Assembly (NCBI GenBank): GCA_016215705.1
Contig: JACRIR010000072.1
Span: 1 to 14,767, forward strand
Length of the DNA stretch: 14,767 nt
Source of the DNA: Candidatus Poribacteria bacterium
GTDB lineage: Bacteria; Abyssobacteria; SURF-5
Direction of reading: 5' to 3'
Part shown: positions 7,827-14,767 of the stretch, piece after piece
Position numbering within the stretch: position 1 is the stretch's first letter
Layout of the letters: each line of letters starts with the position of its first letter
Notes under the pieces: generated by a model
Seen by the model: the letters and a program-made list of their open reading frames with translations, nothing else
The model's database searches: none
Told to the model about the DNA's origin: nothing
Made by a program: the position numbers and the translations under genes

Positions 7827-7827
7827 A

Positions 7828-7855
7828 GTCGCGAGTGGCGAGTCACGAGTCGCAT
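7828..7855. repeat. Degenerate 7-bp tandem array, 4 units
   Basis: Four consecutive heptamers, each beginning GT on the + strand (for example GTCGCGA and GTCACGA), fill nearly the whole 33-bp gap between the stops of the convergent kinase and acyl-CoA dehydrogenase genes. It shares the period and GT phase with the arrays around acpP and at the right end, though the unit sequence differs. No hairpin with a T-run is present, so no intrinsic terminator separates the two operons here. Confidence 0.7.
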
Positions 7856-7859
7856 CCGG

Positions 7860-9017
7860 CTATTGACCGGCAGCAGCTTCTTTTATAAGGTGGCGGGCGA
7901 TTATGTTTCGTTGTATCTGGTTGGTTCCTTCGTATATCTGGGTGATCTTGGCGTCACGCATCATTTTCTCGACCGGGTATTCCTTCATGTAGCCGTAGCC
8001 GCCCATAATCTGAACGGCGTCGGTTGTGACGCGCATCGCCATATCCGAGGCGAATACCTTCGCCATCGCGGAGTCCTTCGAGACGTCCTTGCTGCCGGCG
8101 TCTATCATGCGGGCCGTCGAGTAGACAAGCGCCCGGGCGGCCTCTATTTGCGTGGCCATGTCGGCGAGCATGTGCTGTATGGCCTGGAACGACGTGATTG
8201 ATTCACCGAATTGCCTGCGGCCGCGCGCGTATTGTATCGCTTCATCGAATGCGCCCTGGGCCAGTCCCACTGCCTGCGCCCCGATGCCGGGACGCGTGTT
8301 GTCGAGCGTTCGCATCGCCACGACAAAGCCCATGCCCTCGCGGCCGAGGACGTTCTTCCTGGGGACGCGGCAGTCCTCGAAGAAGATTTCGCGTTGGAGC
8401 GAGGCGCGTATCCCCATTTTGTTTTCCTTGCGGCCGAATGTCATGCCGGGGGCGCCGTCCTCGACAATGATAGCGGTCGCGCCACGGCTGCCGCGGCTCT
8501 TGTCGGTCATTGCGAAAATGGTGTAAATTTGGGCCTCTCCCGCGTTTGTGATCCACTGCTTGCGGCCATTGAGGACGTAGAAATCGCCGTCGGCCATGGC
8601 GGTTGTTTCGATCGCGCCTGCGTCGCTGCCCGCATTGGCTTCGGTCAACCCGAAGGCGGCCAGCGCCTTGCCGGAAGCCACTTCGGGCAGATACTTTTGT
8701 TTCTGTTCTTCGGTTCCGGCCACGAGTATGGGGAAGGACCCGAGGGCGGTCGCCGCAAAACTGGCGCAAACGCCCGCGCACACGCGCGCAATCTCTTCGA
8801 TGGCAAGACACAAGCCGAGACACCCGCCGCTTGTGCCGCCGTATTCTTCGGGGATAAAGATTCCGGTGAGGTTCGTCTTCGCAAACTCATTCATTATCTC
8901 GCGCGGGAATTCGGAGGCATCGTCAAGCTGCGCGCGGACGGGTCGAATTTTTTCCAGCGCGAGCTTACGGGCCAGTTGGCGAATCGCCTTCTGCTTTTCG
9001 TTCAGAAAATAATCCAT
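7860..9017 (-). CDS. Acyl-CoA dehydrogenase (FAD-dependent)
   Basis: Oxidises acyl-CoA to trans-2-enoyl-CoA, passing electrons through FAD to electron-transfer flavoprotein. At 385 aa it has the usual length. Visible family motifs are GLTEANAGSDA (about 123-133), the FAD-contacting WITNAG (155-160), RRQFG (267-271), QIMGGYGY (336-343) and IYEGTNQIQR, where E363 is the expected catalytic base. The ATG at 9017 has GGAGG six bases upstream. The first 53 bases overlap the 3' end of rnc in another frame. The last gene of the fatty-acid synthesis operon, it is a beta-oxidation or acyl-chain-tailoring type enzyme; chain-length or branched-chain preference cannot be read from the sequence. Butyryl-, isovaleryl- or glutaryl-type substrates remain open. 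The Glu position at the C-terminal side argues against an isovaleryl-type base placement. Confidence 0.95.
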   Translation of the reverse strand: MDYFLNEKQKAIRQLARKLALEKIRPVRAQLDDASEFPREIMNEFAKTNLTGIFIPEEYGGTSGGCLGLCLAIEEIARVCAGVCASFAATALGSFPILVAGTEEQKQKYLPEVASGKALAAFGLTEANAGSDAGAIETTAMADGDFYVLNGRKQWITNAGEAQIYTIFAMTDKSRGSRGATAIIVEDGAPGMTFGRKENKMGIRASLQREIFFEDCRVPRKNVLGREGMGFVVAMRTLDNTRPGIGAQAVGLAQGAFDEAIQYARGRRQFGESITSFQAIQHMLADMATQIEAARALVYSTARMIDAGSKDVSKDSAMAKVFASDMAMRVTTDAVQIMGGYGYMKEYPVEKMMRDAKITQIYEGTNQIQRNIIARHLIKEAAAGQ

Positions 9018-9858
9018 GCTCGGCCTCCGGTTTGTTCTCTGATGGGACAGTTTTGCTGTTGGCGGATGAGTGGGCAGAGCCGTCCGTCGGGTCCGGCTCG
9101 GGATTTTCCTGCAATTTCAGCAAGGCGTTGCGCGCAGCGTTCTGCTGGGCCTCTTTCTTGTTTCGGCCAAAGCCGGCGCCATATGGTTTGTCATTGATGG
9201 TAAGCGCCACCTCGTAGGTTCGCTCATGTGGCGGCCCGGATTCGTTCACGACGGTATACCTGGGCAGCATCTGGAAACGAGACTGCGTGACTTCCTGGAG
9301 CATGGACTTATAGTCCATCTTGTGCTGGTCGTGGTCGAGACGCTCGATCTCATCGCCGAAATGGTTCATGATGAACTGGTGCGCGGCTTTGAGCCCACCG
9401 TCGAGATAAACCGCGCCGATGATGGCCTCCATCGCGTCGGCCAGCAATGAATTGCGCCGCCGCCCGCCGCCGAGTTCCTCTCCTTTGCCCAGTCGTATGT
9501 AAGGGCCGATGCCTATTTTTTTTGCGACGAGTGCGAGCGTGGTTTTGCTCACGACGGCTGCGCGCAGCTTGGTGAGTTTGCCCTCGTAATACATGGGGTA
9601 GCTGTCAAAAAGCTCGTGGCTGACGACGAGTTCGAGAACCGCGTCACCCAGGAACTCCATTTTTTCGTTGTGCGGGCGTCTCTCGTCGGGAAGCTCATTG
9701 ACAAAAGAAGAGTGTGAAAGCGCTTGATCCAGCAGTTTCAGCCGCCGGAAACGCACCCGCATCGTCTTTTCGAGGTCCTTGAGCGCCTTTCGTCTGGGCG
9801 GCTCTATAGGATGTGAGCGCTGTCGGTCATTCGAATTTTTTGAAGATGAGAGTTGCAT
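8965..9858 (-). CDS. rnc: Ribonuclease III
   Basis: Double-strand-specific endoribonuclease that processes rRNA precursors and structured mRNAs. The signature HNEKMEFLGD (63-72, metal ligands E65, E68 and D72) and LLADAMEAIIGAVYLDGG (D141, E144) are intact, followed by a dsRNA-binding domain (about 182-250) with KKEAQQNAARNALL. A 47-residue polar, Pro/Ser/Glu-rich tail follows, making it 297 aa against about 226 in E. coli. The ATG at 9858 lies inside fabF (32-bp overlap) without a clear ribosome site; the next Met (33) would cut into the first conserved helix, so the upstream start is kept. The tail's last 53 bases overlap the acyl-CoA dehydrogenase start and its ribosome site. Linkage of rnc to acpP-fabF is common in bacteria. 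Confidence 0.95.
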   Translation of the reverse strand: MQLSSSKNSNDRQRSHPIEPPRRKALKDLEKTMRVRFRRLKLLDQALSHSSFVNELPDERRPHNEKMEFLGDAVLELVVSHELFDSYPMYYEGKLTKLRAAVVSKTTLALVAKKIGIGPYIRLGKGEELGGGRRRNSLLADAMEAIIGAVYLDGGLKAAHQFIMNHFGDEIERLDHDQHKMDYKSMLQEVTQSRFQMLPRYTVVNESGPPHERTYEVALTINDKPYGAGFGRNKKEAQQNAARNALLKLQENPEPDPTDGSAHSSANSKTVPSENKPEAEHGLFSERKAEGDSPTGP

Positions 9859-11071
9859 TGGTTCCGCCGAATCCGAACGAGTTACTCATGGCATAATCCA
9901 CTTTCATCTCGCGAGCCAAATTAGGGACGTAGTCGAGATCGCACTCGGGGTCGGGCTCCTCGTAGTTGATGGTTGGCGGCACGACGCCGTTCTTTATCGA
10001 GAGAAGCGTCGCGACCGCTTCCACTCCGCCTGCCGCCCCCAGGAGATGCCCCATATGCGACTTGGTCGAACTGATGCAGAGTTTGCGCGCATGCTCGCCG
10101 AAAACGGTTTTGACCGCTTCGGTCTCGAGCTTGTCGTTGAGGTGGGTGGAGGTTCCGTGCGCGTTGATGTAGTCCACGACATCCGGAGAGACGCGGGCGC
10201 TTCGCAGGGCCGCGCGCATCGAGCGCGCCGCGCCGTCGCCGTCGGGCGAAGGAGCGGTTATATGATATGCGTCGGCAGACATGCCGTAGCCGACGATCTC
10301 GCCGAGGATGCTTGCGCCGCGCGCCCGGGCGTGCTCGAGTTCTTCGAGCAGTACGATGCCGGCGCCTTCTCCCATTACGAACCCGTCGCGAGTGCGGTCG
10401 AACGGCCGACTTGCGCGCTCGGGCTGGTCGTTACGGGAAGTTGTGAGCGCCCGCATTGCGCAGAAGCCTGCAAAACCTACGGGCGTCAGACAGGCCTCGC
10501 TGCCGCCGGCGAGCATGAGGTCGGCCTCGTCGCGCTCGATGATGCGGTAGGCGTCGCCTATCGCGTGGCTGCCGGTCGCGCAGGCAGTGCTGACGGCGGC
10601 GTTTGGTCCCTTGAGGCCGAAGTTCATGGCGACAACGCCCGCTGCCATATTGATGATGAGCATGGGTACGAAAAACGGGCTGATGCGCTTTGGTCCTTTT
10701 TCGAGATACACCAGGTGCTGGTCTTCGATGGTGGTCATGCCGCCGACGCCGGAGCCGATGAGCACACCGAAGCGATCGCGATCGACTTTTTCAAGGTCAA
10801 TCCCCGAGTTAGCAAGGGCCAGTTTGCCGGCGGCAAGCGCAAAATGAGTGAAGCGGTCGGTCCGTTTGACTTCCTTCGGCGAGAAATAATCTTCGGCGTT
10901 GAAGTTTTCGACCATGCCTGCGACTTTCGAGGAATAGTCGGTCGTGTCGAAATAGGTCAGGCGTTTCGTTCCTGAGCGGCCCTCTTTGAGGGATTCCCAG
11001 AACTTGTCGAGTGTATTGCCCACCGGCGAGATAACGCCGGCGCCGGTTATCACGACACGTCTTTGCGTCAA
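9827..11071 (-). CDS. fabF: 3-oxoacyl-[acyl-carrier-protein] synthase II (KAS II)
   Basis: Condenses malonyl-ACP with acyl-ACP in the elongation cycle of type II fatty acid synthesis. The 414-aa protein has the Cys-His-His site: C164 in VSTACATG, H305 in NAHGTST and H342 in MGHLLGAAGG, with K337 nearby. The N terminus (TQRRVVITGAGVISPVG) and C terminus (NSFGFGGTNATLIFKKF) are typical. The start codon is TTG, supported by GGGAG seven bases upstream and by the absence of an in-frame ATG nearby. It follows acpP after an unusually long 231-bp gap that holds two heptamer arrays and a hairpin repeat, so a separate promoter for fabF-rnc cannot be excluded, though I see no convincing one. It overlaps rnc by 32 bp. 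Confidence 0.97.
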   Translation of the reverse strand: MTQRRVVITGAGVISPVGNTLDKFWESLKEGRSGTKRLTYFDTTDYSSKVAGMVENFNAEDYFSPKEVKRTDRFTHFALAAGKLALANSGIDLEKVDRDRFGVLIGSGVGGMTTIEDQHLVYLEKGPKRISPFFVPMLIINMAAGVVAMNFGLKGPNAAVSTACATGSHAIGDAYRIIERDEADLMLAGGSEACLTPVGFAGFCAMRALTTSRNDQPERASRPFDRTRDGFVMGEGAGIVLLEELEHARARGASILGEIVGYGMSADAYHITAPSPDGDGAARSMRAALRSARVSPDVVDYINAHGTSTHLNDKLETEAVKTVFGEHARKLCISSTKSHMGHLLGAAGGVEAVATLLSIKNGVVPPTINYEEPDPECDLDYVPNLAREMKVDYAMSNSFGFGGTNATLIFKKFE

Positions 11072-11093
11072 TGTTTGTCTCCCAGGAAAGTCA

Positions 11094-11135
11094 GTTCATG
11101 GTTCACGGTCTACGGTATACAGTCTACGGTTGAGA
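11094..11135. repeat. Degenerate 7-bp tandem array, 6 units
   Basis: Six heptamers start with GT in phase on the + strand, including GTTCATG, GTTCACG and two copies of GTCTACG. The first unit is identical to a unit of the array at 14632-14701, more than 3.5 kb away. It lies about 20 bp upstream of the fabF start, so it is inside the transcribed acpP-fabF spacer. Confidence 0.75.
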
Positions 11136-11163
11136 AGATAAGAATGAGTTGGGTTTCCAAGCC

Positions 11164-11211
11164 GAATCCAACTGTTTCTTTCGTAGTTAACTCCGCCAGA
11201 GGTGGAGTCAG
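11164..11211. repeat. Dispersed hairpin repeat, copy 1
   Basis: Shares the blocks TGTTTCTTTC, AACTCCGC, AGAG, GG and TCAG, in the same order and nearly the same spacing, with 11640-11685. The core forms a stem of ACTCCGCC (11190-11197) with GGTGGAGT (11201-11208) around an AGA loop; one pair is G-U. Both copies follow a heptamer array in + orientation. The pairing is kept although the bases differ between copies, which suggests the structure matters. Confidence 0.5.
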
Positions 11212-11229
11212 GGCGCTTCCCGCAAGAAA

Positions 11230-11250
11230 GTCGAAAGTTGAAGGCCGAAA
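11230..11250. repeat. Degenerate 7-bp tandem array, 3 units
   Basis: Three heptamers, GTCGAAA, GTTGAAG and GCCGAAA, lie in the acpP-fabF spacer. Short on its own, but it has the same period as the other arrays and lies between hairpin repeat copy 1 and the acpP stop. Chance occurrence cannot be excluded for so few units. Confidence 0.45.
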
Positions 11251-11302
11251 CGGGTTCGCTTCCTTCAAAACCAATCCCGAGAAGCTTTCTGTGGTCCACC
11301 GG

Positions 11303-11536
11303 CTACAGATTCTTTATGAATTCTATCGCATTTCGAACGGTTATGATCTTCTCGGCCTCTTCGTCGGTTATCTCGATTTCGAACTCGTCTTCGAGCGTCA
11401 TAATGAGTTCGACGACGTCAAGCGAGTCAGCGCCGAGGTCGTCAATGAATTTGGCATCGTCGGTCACCTGTTCGAGATTGATGTCGAGCTTTTCGGCGAT
11501 TATTTCCTTTATTCTTGCGTCGCTCACCTGGACCAT
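11303..11536 (-). CDS. acpP: Acyl carrier protein
   Basis: Small acidic carrier that holds growing acyl chains on a 4'-phosphopantetheine arm. The 77-aa sequence has the attachment motif [10 protein letters not shown] with S38 and the usual four-helix pattern ending in IEFIKNL. The ATG at 11536 has AGGA about seven bases upstream and a stronger GGAG at 12. It is flanked on both sides by more than 200 bp of repeat-rich spacer, unlike the tight packing of the rest of the operon. A perfect inverted repeat sits just upstream of the ribosome site. Such isolation could let acpP be expressed more highly than its neighbours, as is usual for ACP, but no separate promoter was recognised with confidence. 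Confidence 0.97.
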
Positions 11537-11552
11537 GCCCGATTCCTGCTCC

Positions 11553-11570
11553 TTTCGTTAGTCAACGAAA
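11553..11570. promoter_or_regulatory. Inverted repeat in the acpP leader (operator or RNA hairpin candidate)
   Basis: TTTCGTT and AACGAAA form a perfect 7-bp inverted repeat around AGTC, ending two bases before the GGAG upstream of acpP on the - strand. In RNA it would be a short hairpin next to the ribosome site; in DNA it has the size of a repressor half-site pair. No known fatty-acid regulator motif (FapR, FadR, FabR) was recognised. Confidence 0.4.
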
Positions 11571-11593
11571 CCCTCCTAAGAAAATGGCCTAAA

Positions 11594-11643
11594 GTCCAAA
11601 GTCTAAGGTCCAAAGTCCAAAGGTTTCAGGTTTGAGGTTGAAC
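11594..11643. repeat. Degenerate 7-bp tandem array, 7 units with a one-base slip
   Basis: Seven heptamers starting GT on the + strand. The first four are GTCCAAA-like (one is GTCTAAG); after one extra base the last three are GTTTCAG, GTTTGAG and GTTGAAC. The array lies between the acpP start and hairpin repeat copy 2, in the fabG-acpP spacer. Confidence 0.7.
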
Positions 11644-11685
11644 CCATGTGTTTCTTTCACGAACAACTCCGCGCAGAGCGGTCAG
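11640..11685. repeat. Dispersed hairpin repeat, copy 2
   Basis: Diverged copy of the element at 11164-11211, sharing TGTTTCTTTC (11649-11658), AACTCCGC, AGAG and TCAG. Its core stem is CCGC (11669-11672) with GCGG (11678-11681) around a five-base loop. It partly overlaps the last unit of the heptamer array. Orientation is the same as copy 1. Confidence 0.5.
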
Positions 11686-11705
11686 ATGCTCTCCAGAGCC
11701 CATGC

Positions 11706-11744
11706 TTATCCGGGGACACCATGCGGCATGGTGTCCCCGGATAA
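11706..11744. repeat. Perfect palindrome, 19-bp arms, one-base centre
   Basis: The arm TTATCCGGGGACACCATGC is followed by a single G and its exact reverse complement, ending 9 bp after the fabG stop in transcription order. There is no T-run after it on either strand, so it is not a canonical intrinsic terminator, though as RNA it would be a very stable hairpin able to protect the upstream fabD-fabG message. The shape fits a repetitive extragenic palindrome; a REP-associated transposase is the likely mobiliser if so (inference). Confidence 0.85.
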
Positions 11745-11753
11745 ACTCTCGCG

Positions 11754-12497
11754 TCACATCGCCATACCGCCGTCGGAGCGGATGACCTCGCCCGTTATGT
11801 AGTCTGAGGCGGGCGCCACGAGAAATTTCACGACTTCAGCCACGTCTTCCGGCTTTCCCATTCGGCCGAGCGGAATGAGTCTCAAGAGTTCCTCTTTGGT
11901 TTTGTCCGGCAGTCCCTCGGTCATGGCCGAGGAGATCAGGCCCGGCGCCACGCAGTTGACGGTTATGTTGCGAGAGGCGAGCTCGCGCGCAACCGATTTT
12001 GTGAAACCGATGACACCGGCTTTCGCGGCGCAGTAATTGGCCTGGCCGGCATTGCCGACGACGCCGACGACGGACGTTATGTTGACTATCTTGCCGCTGC
12101 GCTGTTTGAGCATCGTGCGCGCGACCGCCTTCGTGCAGTTGAATGTTCCCTTTAGATTCGTGTCGATTACTTTATCCCACTCGTCCTCTTTCATCCGGAG
12201 GAGCAGGTTGTCGGAGGTGACTCCGGCGTTGTTCACGAGGATATCGATGCGGCCGGCGTCCCTGAGAACGTCGTTCACGAGCCGGCCGACCGATTCGACT
12301 TCGGTAACGTCAAGCCGGTATGGACGCGCGCGGCCGCCTTCGGACTCGATGTGGTCCGCGGTTTCTTTGCCGGCCGCGAGGTTGCGGCTGCATACGGCGA
12401 CGGTTGCGCCCTCTCTCGCAAGCGCGAAGGCAATGGCCCGCCCGATGCCGCGCGAACCGCCTGTGACTATCGCCACTTTCCCTTCAAGCGCCTTCAT
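11754..12497 (-). CDS. fabG: 3-oxoacyl-[acyl-carrier-protein] reductase
   Basis: NADPH-dependent reductase of the fatty acid elongation cycle, a short-chain dehydrogenase. The 247-aa protein shows the cofactor motif TGGSRGIGRA (12-21), NNAG (89-92), and the catalytic set N114, S142, Y155 and K159 (YCAAK). The C terminus ITGEVIRSDGGMAM is typical of FabG. The ATG overlaps the fabD stop as ATGA, so the pair is translationally coupled. Downstream, a perfect palindrome and a 217-bp spacer separate it from acpP. Many SDR paralogues exist, but the position between fabD and acpP makes FabG the clear call. Confidence 0.97.
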   Translation of the reverse strand: MKALEGKVAIVTGGSRGIGRAIAFALAREGATVAVCSRNLAAGKETADHIESEGGRARPYRLDVTEVESVGRLVNDVLRDAGRIDILVNNAGVTSDNLLLRMKEDEWDKVIDTNLKGTFNCTKAVARTMLKQRSGKIVNITSVVGVVGNAGQANYCAAKAGVIGFTKSVARELASRNITVNCVAPGLISSAMTEGLPDKTKEELLRLIPLGRMGKPEDVAEVVKFLVAPASDYITGEVIRSDGGMAM

Positions 12498-13420
12498 GAT
12501 TTCTGCGCAAGGGCCTCGACGGAATCGGGCCCGTCCACATTCAGACCGACCGTTGAGCCGTTGGTTCGTTTGAGGAGTCCCGTAAGCACTTTGCCCGGGC
12601 CCACCTCGATAAACGTGGCTACACCTTCCTCGAGCATCCGCTCGACTGTGAGCTGCCAGCGAACGGGATTGTATATTTGTTCGACAAGCTTGTTCCGAAT
12701 CTGCGCGGGGTCATCCGTGAGCGACGCCGTGACATTCGGGAAGAAGCTTATTGCAGGCGCTGCCAGGGGCGTCTTCATGGCGTAGGGCTCGAACTCGTCG
12801 GCGGCCGAACGCATCAAGCGCGAGTGGAACGCGCCCGAAACCTGAAGCGGGATCACGCGCCTGGCGCCGCGTCGCATGGCTTCGTCGCCTGCCGTCTTCA
12901 CGGCATTTCGCTCACCCGAGATAACCACTTGTCCCGGCGAGTTGATATTGGCGACATCGACTACTCCGTCGCTGACACCCGCACAGATTTCTTCCAGCGT
13001 CTGTGCGTCGAATCCGAGGACAGCGCACATAGCGCCGCCGTTGGCTTCGCACGCCCGCTGCATCGCCGTCGCGCGGGCGCTCACAAGCGCGAGCGCATCC
13101 TCGAACGTTATTGCGCCGGCCGCTACAAGGGCGGAATACTCGCCCAGGCTGTGTCCGGCGACATAGTCGGGCGAAAGGCCCATTTGCTCCATGACTTTTA
13201 TGAGCGCTACGCTAACCACAAAGATTGCGGGCTGAGCGTAAACGGTCTGTTTGAGGGTGTCTTCGGGTCCGTCGAAGATTATGCGGCGCAGGTCTTTTCC
13301 GAGCGATTGTTCCGCCTGGTCGAAAACGATTCGGGCTTCTGCGAATCGCTCGCATAGTTCCCGGCCCATACCAACGTACTGGCTTCCCTGGCCGGGGAAT
13401 ATCCACGCGGTCTTGCCCAT
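12494..13420 (-). CDS. fabD: Malonyl-CoA:ACP transacylase
   Basis: Transfers malonyl from CoA to ACP, supplying the extender for fatty acid synthesis. The nucleophile S91 lies in AGHSLGEYSA, R116 and H199 (VSGAFHS) complete the site, and GQGSQ (10-14) gives the oxyanion-hole Gln. The start is set at ATG 13420: AGGAG ends five bases before it, and the protein then begins MGKTAWIFPGQGSQ. A GTG at 13426 in frame is rejected because it overlaps that AGGAG. The 308-aa length is usual. It follows rpmF after 76 bp; plsX and fabH, which normally stand there, are missing. It overlaps fabG by four bases. Confidence 0.97.
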   Translation of the reverse strand: MGKTAWIFPGQGSQYVGMGRELCERFAEARIVFDQAEQSLGKDLRRIIFDGPEDTLKQTVYAQPAIFVVSVALIKVMEQMGLSPDYVAGHSLGEYSALVAAGAITFEDALALVSARATAMQRACEANGGAMCAVLGFDAQTLEEICAGVSDGVVDVANINSPGQVVISGERNAVKTAGDEAMRRGARRVIPLQVSGAFHSRLMRSAADEFEPYAMKTPLAAPAISFFPNVTASLTDDPAQIRNKLVEQIYNPVRWQLTVERMLEEGVATFIEVGPGKVLTGLLKRTNGSTVGLNVDGPDSVEALAQKS

Positions 13421-13496
13421 CTTCACTCCTAAGAAAGAGGCGAGACACAGCTCGCTTTATTATCCCGCGAAGCGCGTGATGATTCGCAATAATGAA

Positions 13497-13676
13497 TCAC
13501 TCGGCGACCGTTACGACCTGTCGTCCATTGTAGAACCCGCATTCGGGGCAGACCCTGTGGGCCAAGACGGGCTTTGCGCAGTTCGGGCACTTCATGACGT
13601 TTTGGGCTTTAAGGGCGCGATGCGCTCGCCGTTTGTCCCTTCGCGTGCGCGATATTCTGCGTTTTGGTTGGGCCAT
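13497..13676 (-). CDS. rpmF: 50S ribosomal protein L32
   Basis: Zinc-ribbon protein of the large ribosomal subunit. I translated it by hand: 59 aa, starting MAQPKRRISRTRRDKRRAHR, with CPNC (30-33) and CPEC (45-48) as the zinc ligands. GGAGG lies eight bases before the ATG on the - strand. The basic N terminus and Cys spacing are those of four-Cys (zinc-binding) L32. It is cotranscribed with the upstream DUF177 gene, as in many bacteria. A TGATTC/GAATCA inverted repeat (13480-13499) overlaps the stop codon, but it has no T-run. Confidence 0.96.
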   Translation of the reverse strand: MAQPKRRISRTRRDKRRAHRALKAQNVMKCPNCAKPVLAHRVCPECGFYNGRQVVTVAE

Positions 13677-13689
13677 TGTTATTCCTCCA

Positions 13690-13748
13690 TCTTTCTTATC
13701 CGCGGATTTCTGTCTTCAGGTTCCAGCTTCTTTGTTATCTACAGATTT
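13690..13748. repeat. Word-like direct repeats between DUF177 and rpmF
   Basis: Two 20-base segments, 13690-13709 and 13729-13748, match at 16 of 20 positions. The first contains the palindrome ATCCGCGGAT. Between them lie weak heptamers (GTCTTCA, GGTTCCA). The whole spacer looks made of short degenerate words like the other intergenic regions here, but with less regular period. Confidence 0.4.
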
Positions 13749-13757
13749 CGCTGATTT

Positions 13758-14300
13758 TTACGGATTTTGCCGCTTCTCTTTCAGTTTTCCTTTCAAGTCC
13801 TTCAGCTTCTCGAAAGGCGACGATATGGCATCCAGCTCGCAGGCGCAGGGGGCCACGTTCAGGTCTGCGCCGCACTGTGGGCAGAGCCCTTTGCATTCGT
13901 CGCTGCACACCGGTTTGACGGGCAGATTCACGATCAGAAGCTCTCTGGTCTCATGCAGGAGGTCTATGACGTCCTCCTTGTAGAAAGAGAGGTCAACGGC
14001 GGGTTGATCGGCCATTTCTTCTTCTCGTGTCGCCATGTCACGCTCCGGCACGCAGAGAACATTCATAGCCATCTCGACCGGCATGGCAAAACTTGCCAGG
14101 CAGCGGCTGCATTCGGAAGTGATTGATCCCTTAAGTGTTCCGGTCACGTAGACGTCGTCATCGCTCCTGGTGGCGCGGCCGGTGAAAGCGATATCTTCCC
14201 GGAGATTGTAGCCGCGGAAATTCAGATTCACCTCCGACGGCTCGAATTTCGTCTCGATATCTTGTCCCTCTTCGGGAATCTTATCAACACGAATTTTCAT
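13758..14300 (-). CDS. yceD: DUF177 (YceD-family) protein
   Basis: A 180-aa member of the DUF177 family, whose E. coli and plant members are linked to 23S rRNA accumulation; the biochemical role is not settled. A Cys pair, CSRC (64-67), precedes the family hallmark CSDECKGLCPQCGADLN (C132, C136, C140, C143), followed by C152 and C154, suggesting zinc binding. The C-terminal 20 residues are strongly basic (KLKDLKGKLKEKRQ), fitting RNA contact. The ATG at 14300 has only a weak ribosome site. It is the first gene of the - strand operon, 81 bp upstream of rpmF, and is read from the promoter at 14593-14621 through a long leader. Confidence 0.92.
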   Translation of the reverse strand: MKIRVDKIPEEGQDIETKFEPSEVNLNFRGYNLREDIAFTGRATRSDDDVYVTGTLKGSITSECSRCLASFAMPVEMAMNVLCVPERDMATREEEMADQPAVDLSFYKEDVIDLLHETRELLIVNLPVKPVCSDECKGLCPQCGADLNVAPCACELDAISSPFEKLKDLKGKLKEKRQNP

Positions 14301-14312
14301 GGTCTTGAAATA

Positions 14313-14327
14313 ACGGCTTCAAGCCGT
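14313..14327. promoter_or_regulatory. Short palindrome in the DUF177 leader
   Basis: ACGGCTT and AAGCCGT form a 7-bp inverted repeat around a single C, 12 bp upstream of the DUF177 start. A -35-like TTGACT lies just upstream of it on the - strand (about 14335-14340), so it could be an operator of a second, weaker promoter; no good -10 is visible, so this is tentative. Confidence 0.3.
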
Positions 14328-14419
14328 GGTTGTAAAGTCAAGTGCTGAAAAAGGGCTCGGGAACTTGACGGAATGAGCGGCGTCAGGAAACAAATCCTGT
14401 GCGTTTATTCCTTATTGTG

Positions 14420-14582
14420 ACAAAGGGGCAGGAGGCGGTATTTCCGCGTGTCTTGGTTCAGAAGTACCCCCCGCTGCTCCCCTATCTACAGCTTGCGGCC
14501 CAAGTGGACTTTCCTCCGGAAGGCTGGCTTTCGCACAAGCCTCCGCCTTGAGGAGTCCAAGAACCGCAAGATTCCCTTATGT
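14420..14582 (-). ncRNA. Predicted structured leader or small RNA upstream of DUF177 (three-way junction)
   Basis: Folded by eye on the - strand. Closing stem: 14582-14580 and 14578-14574 with 14427-14420 (one bulged U). Arm 1: CUUGCGG (14570-14564) with CCGCAAG (14498-14492), then GGACU/AGUCC, CCUC/GAGG, AAGG/CCUU and GGCUU/AAGCC with a six-base loop. Arm 2: GCAG (14477-14474) with CUGC (14431-14428), then GGGG/CCUC and GGUA/UACC. The element begins a few bases after the predicted start of transcription. A GGGG at 14482-14479 could displace one strand of the closing stem, giving two alternative states. I match it to no known riboswitch, 6S, SRP or RNase P RNA. No clear terminator follows, so leader and independent RNA are both open. 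Confidence 0.35.
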
Positions 14583-14592
14583 ATCGGCATTA

Positions 14593-14621
14593 ATGGTAGC
14601 ATTTCCACACCTCTTTGTCAA
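14593..14621 (-). promoter_or_regulatory. Sigma70-type promoter of the DUF177-rpmF-fab operon
   Basis: On the - strand a perfect -35 TTGACA (14621-14616) is followed after 17 bp by TACCAT (14598-14593), with TG one base before the -10 (extended -10). Transcription would begin near 14586, giving a leader of about 285 bases before DUF177. Confidence 0.8.
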
Positions 14622-14631
14622 GGAAGTTAAC

Positions 14632-14701
14632 GTTCATGGTTTGTGGTTTGTGGTTCATGGTTTGTGGTTCATGGTTTGTGGTTTGTGGTTCATGGTTCAT
14701 G
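14632..14701. repeat. Two-word 7-bp tandem array, 10 exact units
   Basis: Ten contiguous heptamers of only two kinds, A = GTTCATG and B = GTTTGTG, in the order A-B-B-A-B-A-B-B-A-A, with a partial eleventh (GTTAGAT). Every unit is exact. The array lies 11 bp upstream of the -35 box of the fab-operon promoter. The last 66 bases of the window beyond it show nothing recognisable. Together with the promoter and leader this accounts for the 467 bp without a gene at the right end. Confidence 0.95.
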
Positions 14702-14767
14702 GTTAGATTCCAAAGAAAGCGGCGTCCATTTCTTCGTTTTCTTTTGTAGCCCTTTGCCGCAGAGGGA

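Follow-up and report, generated by a model that had tools for sequence, protein, structure and literature searches.

Gaps between the genes of this genome carry hundreds of short arrays in which GT returns every seven bases and the letters between are variable. The rule common to the arrays is R-G-T-Y followed by three free bases (R-G-T-Y-N-N-N). The same period and phase with different words, as the original prediction described it, holds across the genome and in unrelated phyla. The window, which means the whole stretch of DNA analysed here (14,767 nucleotides), makes up an entire contig of a draft genome (G000) of 5.47 Mb with 92% completeness.

Period-7 arrays in the window

Five period-7 arrays had been predicted in the window, all intergenic and with GT on the + strand. 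They are present at the predicted places, and TRF agrees on period 7 (calls at 7827-7853, 11105-11130, 11591-11622, 11621-11639 and 14632-14704).

7828..7851, + strand: array GTCGCGA GTGGCGA GTCACGA GTC (family-wise P 0.001)
11094..11130, + strand: array GTTCATG GTTCACG GTCTACG GTATACA GTCTACG GT, then GTTGA (family-wise P <0.001)
11230..11250, + strand: weak array GTCGAAA GTTGAAG GCCGAAA (family-wise P 0.041, marginal)
11594..11621, + strand: array GTCCAAA GTCTAAG GTCCAAA GTCCAAA (family-wise P <0.001)
11623..11643, + strand: abutting array GTTTCAG GTTTGAG GTTGAAC, ending in the GTTGA terminus (TRF; terminus statistics)
14632..14704, + strand: ten units GTTCATG/GTTTGTG, then GTT (family-wise P <0.001; score 42 against a shuffle maximum of 12)

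Four of the five predicted arrays are individually secure. The exception is 11230-11250, which is present and marginal, with just two GT units and one GCC unit. The 7828 array, sitting in a 33-bp gap between convergent genes, keeps the GT phase, and its units are not uniformly GTC as predicted, one of them starting with GTG. The stretch 11594-11643, predicted as a single array, has the period and the GT and consists of two abutting arrays with the phase shifted by 1 base. The array at 11094 is upstream of fabF and that at 14632 is the longest of the window. Both contain the word GTTCATG, as was claimed, and this is also the commonest word of the genome sample (53/367).

Lag-7 identity in the intergenic DNA of the window was 0.3174, compared with 0.2555 +/- 0.0136 after dinucleotide-preserving shuffling (0/1000 shuffles as high) and 0.244 in the coding DNA of the window, the opposite of what would speak against the predicted arrays. 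When the 14632 array was left out the intergenic value was still 0.2915 (P = 0.004). There were 13 chains of three GTY units in the window, with 0.14 expected and a shuffle maximum of 2. The genes flanking the arrays are real, and by Pfam they encode acyl-CoA dehydrogenase, RNase III, FabF, AcpP, FabG, FabD, L32 and YceD. Rfam models of known structured RNA families gave no match to the window at gathering score.

Abundance and period in the genome

A five-unit GTY pattern had 370 matches genome-wide, and its reversed control had 1. The arrays could be a chance or compositional artefact, as the marginal array at 11230 might indicate, but this was ruled out by the window shuffles and by the genome-wide excess over the control, and we give it next to no probability. 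Period 7 dominates: in 385 kb of G000 there were 29 intergenic arrays at lag 7 and 0-5 at other lags that are not multiples of 7, this sample being chosen partly for known arrays and enriched for contigs that bear them. In another 272 kb, sampled regardless of known arrays, lag 7 again led all lags up to 21, with 6 arrays. At threshold 14, the 385 kb held 29 intergenic arrays and 4 coding ones, and 77 of the 85 lag-7 arrays of G000 lay outside genes.

Two period-7 families without the RGTY anchor, AAAGGCG and AAAATCC, coexist in G000. The first (AAAGGCG/GGCGAAA) has about 260 matches genome-wide, for example at L025 4299-4322, L031 540-568 and L193 3749-3786, and at several sites the CTTTCGC strand continues in phase into a ribosome-site-like TTTCTTAGGAG just before a start codon. 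A conserved ribosome-site context, CGAGTTTCTTAGGAG, was also considered beside the arrays; it is real for a few of them and not general. Gaps of G000 and of the related genome G002 further hold degenerate arrays of other periods (L171 9900-10900, L174 1000-2100 and L025 3800-4900), namely 9 (CTTCGTGNN, ATGACRCAA), 10 (GATGCGTCAY) and about 12 (AATCTGTG...). The generating process may extend beyond period 7.

The RGTY anchor and variation between units

When arrays were detected by lag-7 identity alone, without reference to GT, the consensus contained RGTY in 44/85 (52%) of those in G000, 13/20 (65%) in G002, 30/45 (67%) in G018 and 10/20 (50%) in G020; permuting the letters gave expectations of 20%, 28%, 20% and 17%, respectively. 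The signal was weaker in the set of named genomes, 52/142 (37%) against 22% permuted, where the loci had been retrieved with a GT pattern and the arrays holding the retrieving match were left out of this figure. RGTY was in the consensus of 0/5 lag-7 arrays of G005.

Column conservation in the G000 arrays was.964 for G,.963 for T and.853 for Y, then.674,.884 and.803 for the three free bases and.796 for R. The commonest words were GTTCATG, GTTTATG, GTTTAGG, GTTCACG, GTTTACG, GTTCATA and GTCGAAA, and their order within arrays was near random. While columns 1-2 stay fixed, the letters of columns 3, 4 and 7 switch back and forth, largely through transitions and without memory of the neighbouring unit, as if drawn afresh, with columns 3 and 7 confined to Y and R. 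Neighbour memory is limited to column 6 (114 vs 92 +/- 4), which changes in blocks. Pairing of position 3 with position 7 in a loop within the unit was tried and rejected, as pair counts show no covariation.

Outside the anchor, units of one G000 array had a similarity of about 0.63-0.64 at every distance, compared with 0.44 between arrays. Identical neighbouring units were in slight excess (35 vs 26.1 +/- 4.0, P 0.018), which shows some local duplication. Simple copying, where one unit is duplicated and then mutated, fits this poorly. The variation is column-specific, and neither exact slippage of units nor uniform neutral decay predicts such a structure. Plain heptamer slippage that is blind to sequence, with the GT rule as an incidental property, is fairly unlikely in our judgement. 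The long arrays of the named genomes are near-perfect with a strong excess of identical neighbours (346 vs 296 +/- 10.5), as slippage would give, and period 7 is the commonest intergenic tandem-repeat unit in prokaryotes according to one survey (PMC6344855). But slippage accounts for the period only: RGTY is over-represented 2-3 times in four array-rich genomes that are unrelated or distantly related, the GT columns are conserved beyond the others, and the memory is specific to one column.

Distribution across bacteria

With one genome scanned per species, a seven-unit GTYNNNR pattern was found in at least 118 stretches, while chance matches are expected less than once in 257 billion bases (hand-calculated estimate with equal base frequencies). 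Among the matches listed were Cyanobacteria, Bacteroidota, Chloroflexota, Planctomycetota, Acidobacteria, Desulfobacterota, Omnitrophota and others. Many stretches had mixed words, such as GTTGACG GTTATCA GTTATCG GTTGCCA in Pedobacter jejuensis. For cyanobacteria the reversed-pattern control is not independent, since words with CA at their end are matched by it on the opposite strand.

The five-unit pattern had some match in 11 of 41 genomes of a relatives set and at least 16 matches in six, the window's genome included; just two genomes of this set are closer to G000 than domain level, and G018 stands alone in its genus. Abundance of arrays in these 41 genomes was not tracked by Y1 transposase (PF01797) or by reverse transcriptase (PF00078), and both were rejected as makers of the arrays. 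Given the same grammar in many unrelated bacteria, something seems to build the arrays, or to keep them, in exact GT register.

Comparison of the fab operon with related genera

Synteny of the window's fab operon extends to the two other genera of its family (G001 and G002), and the operon arrays sit exactly in two gaps that are expanded in G000.

11072..11302, no strand: acpP-fabF gap, expanded (about 235 bp vs 55 and 32 bp in relatives)
11537..11753, no strand: fabG-acpP gap, expanded, with two arrays and a palindrome (about 220 bp vs 70 and 62 bp in relatives)

No arrays were found in the matching fab gaps of G001 and G002 (32-70 bp), which are relatives at genus level and too distant for arrays to be compared base by base; in G002 a short GTTTCGGGTTCCGA chain follows RNase III. 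So the arrays are not ancestral regulatory sites of that operon. Either the arrays and the extra sequence were gained in the G000 lineage, or they were lost in both relatives. At the one syntenic operon compared, the arrays are labile and lineage-specific. Both fab gaps also have a similar stretch after the array, TTTCTTTCRYRRWYAACTCCGC..AG.G (window 11171-11212 and 11651-11690), for which one relative was found, at the sampled locus L037 2632-2671.

The GTTGA terminus and dispersed elements

In G000, 19 of 73 arrays had GTTGA as their last GT unit, and 0 of 287 inner units were GTTGA (P 8.5e-15, a value that treats arrays as independent and is therefore too small by an unknown amount). G002 had it in 6/22 last units and 1/73 inner ones, and no such terminus was observed in G018, in G020 or in the named set. 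Its polarity points to one side of the array as the favoured place to start. About five G000 arrays have a longer downstream block in common, GTTGAAC.CCAAAGAAGCTGAACA...GTCATTC.CGCGAAA, so shared descent accounts for part of the GTTGA end. In the sampled loci the CCAAAGAAGCTGAACA block was noted downstream of arrays in L028, L035, L036, L232 and L246, and it is possibly part of a dispersed element. A separate element lies in the fabG-acpP gap.

11706..11744, no strand: near-perfect dispersed palindrome TTATCCGGGGACACCATGCGGCATGGTGTCCCCGGATAA (about 340 genome copies; reversed control 0)

This palindrome would be REP-like. The arrays themselves are direct repeats and lack the palindromic unit that defines REP (RAYT) elements. 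That the arrays belong to mobile dispersed elements (REP/MITE-like palindromes), or hitch-hike with them, is very unlikely. The shared CCAAAGAAGCTGAACA block, the presence of Y1 transposase genes, and the palindrome copy sharing its gap with two window arrays would agree with it, but the flanks of most arrays are unrelated, and Y1 transposases occur in 28 of the 41 genomes, most of those without arrays.

Strand, GC skew and position relative to genes

The prediction had raised the question whether GT phase follows replication or gene orientation. It does not follow gene orientation: in codirectional gaps there were 18 sense and 23 antisense arrays, and GT strand against majority gene strand was 39:31. 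It does follow local GC skew, a proxy rather than a measured direction of replication, and GT lies preferentially on the G-rich strand. GT strand and locus skew agreed in 47 arrays and disagreed in 23 (47/70, P = 0.006; loci 24:9, P = 0.014). With gene-corrected third-position skew the agreement was 48/70 arrays (P 0.003) and 22:11 loci (P 0.08). This roughly 2:1 association comes from a single draft genome and was not significant in small samples of three others. The match with skew points to the GT strand as the lagging-strand template.

Arrays were near start codons more often than under uniform placement (40% vs 27% within 50 bp), these distances being approximate because the genes were called by a simple codon-based caller. 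Within 40 bp of a start they were mostly antisense (10:4), which leaves room for a local leader effect in some of the arrays. The arrays may alternatively be clusters of sites at which a putative regulator reads RGTY in DNA or in 5' leaders, with selection holding GT while the spacer drifts; sites of a regulator were likewise proposed for the TAACTGA repeats of Beggiatoaceae (PMC4679880). This would explain more directly why GT is fixed among variable neighbours, and the confinement of columns 3 and 7 to Y and R, the start-codon preference and the antisense bias agree with it. We regard it as somewhat doubtful, as both related genera lack arrays in these fab gaps, and as arrays occur also in convergent gaps, show no overall gene-strand bias, and differ in their words between lineages.

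Proposed origin of the arrays

Arrays have arisen in many gaps between genes. The shared grammar across phyla, together with the absence from the orthologous gaps of relatives, makes independent origin by a common process the better reading. The prediction of a common generating mechanism instead of simple duplication thus stands as regards independent origins, while the process itself we infer. We tentatively favour, as possible rather than probable, local tandem duplication in 7-nt steps on one replication strand, kept in register by a putative factor specific for RGTY.

Duplication would take place during replication, locally and by seven nucleotides per step. A putative factor acting on one strand, such as a polymerase, primase, nuclease or strand-annealing factor, would set the register by recognising RGTY, and the growing end would re-pair at the RGTY of the preceding unit. 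For this step the letters in between would not be needed, and they could drift or be copied loosely. Arrays of this kind would need no function and would accumulate between genes, where insertions are tolerated.

A bolder form of this proposal, which we consider quite unlikely, is that bacteria share one conserved, widespread and unrecognised machine, which reads RGTY on a single strand and makes or remakes arrays seven nucleotides at a time, copying the spacer loosely. If it were true, the heptamer arrays of many phyla would be the products of this machine and not of generic slippage. The RGTY anchor, the column-specific variation, the polar end and the link to skew give testable handles on the old heptamer puzzle; from them one would expect a factor with sequence specificity, a direction in which arrays grow and a bias towards one replication strand.

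Comparison with known heptamer systems

With the heptanucleotide tandem repeats of prokaryotes (LSSRs) the arrays share exact 7-nt tandem units, longer than chance in the genome, and a mainly intergenic place. Near-identity of the units, which slippage would give and which the surveys do not make obligatory, is seen in the long arrays of named genomes, and in G000 neighbouring units are only 0.63 similar outside the anchor. The cyanobacterial STRR heptamers (Calothrix/Nostoc) have the unit CCCCAGT. It rotates to GTCCCCA, which is present here in Scytonema and Dolichospermum, and both are tandem heptamers, but STRR heptamers are described as few fixed words, unlike the present arrays.

Prokaryotic heptanucleotide LSSRs likewise have period 7 and an intergenic place in many species, without known function, according to the SPADE survey (PMC6344855) and to Mrazek 2007 as cited in PMC4679880. 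In the same survey tandem heptamers are the most abundant periodic intergenic repeats in prokaryotes, without clear functional clue. Mrazek 2007, as cited in PMC4679880 and PMC4692102, took 7 nt as a polymerase footprint leading to heptamer slippage. The accessible text of these LSSR surveys (PMC4679880, PMC6344855) gives abundance and period, and says nothing of an RGTY anchor, of a constant phase despite differing words, or of strand polarity.

The GGGNATC repeats of Xanthomonas and Nostoc (Rehm 2015, PMC4692102, which also mentions Calothrix heptanucleotides) are heterogeneous and intergenic too, and vary in length between close species. They form quadruplexes and are driven by G tracts, without GT anchor and outside the RGTY grammar, whereas most common G000 words lack a three-G tract per unit; the exception is GTTTAGG, with GGG across the unit junction. 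The GC-rich elements of Geobacter metallireducens (GGGACCG, MTYCTGA; PMC2700814) are also dispersed and have four to five tandem heptamers, but unlike the present arrays they have fixed length and sequence, follow no GT rule and lie partly inside genes.

A further comparison is with the TAACTGA direct repeats of Beggiatoaceae, Cyanobacteria and Bacteroidetes (MacGregor 2015, PMC4679880), which fit RGTY-NNN since the other strand reads GTTATCA. They are intergenic, and in Microcystis they are mixed with other heptamers, like the present arrays; in Cyanothece comparisons the indels were mostly 7-nt steps (PMC4679880). Most TAACTGA sets lie just upstream of starts, and in Beggiatoaceae there is one dominant word in one orientation, whereas the present arrays have many words and no overall gene-strand bias. 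GTTATCA/TAACTGA is absent from the top words of G000 and present in Scytonema, and the fixed orientation directly upstream of starts is not a property of the G000 arrays, with their modest start preference and near-equal sense and antisense counts. No description of the RGTY anchor was found in the open-access literature searched, which is not proof of absence. The cross-phylum RGTY grammar, the strand polarity and the polar GTTGA end look new.
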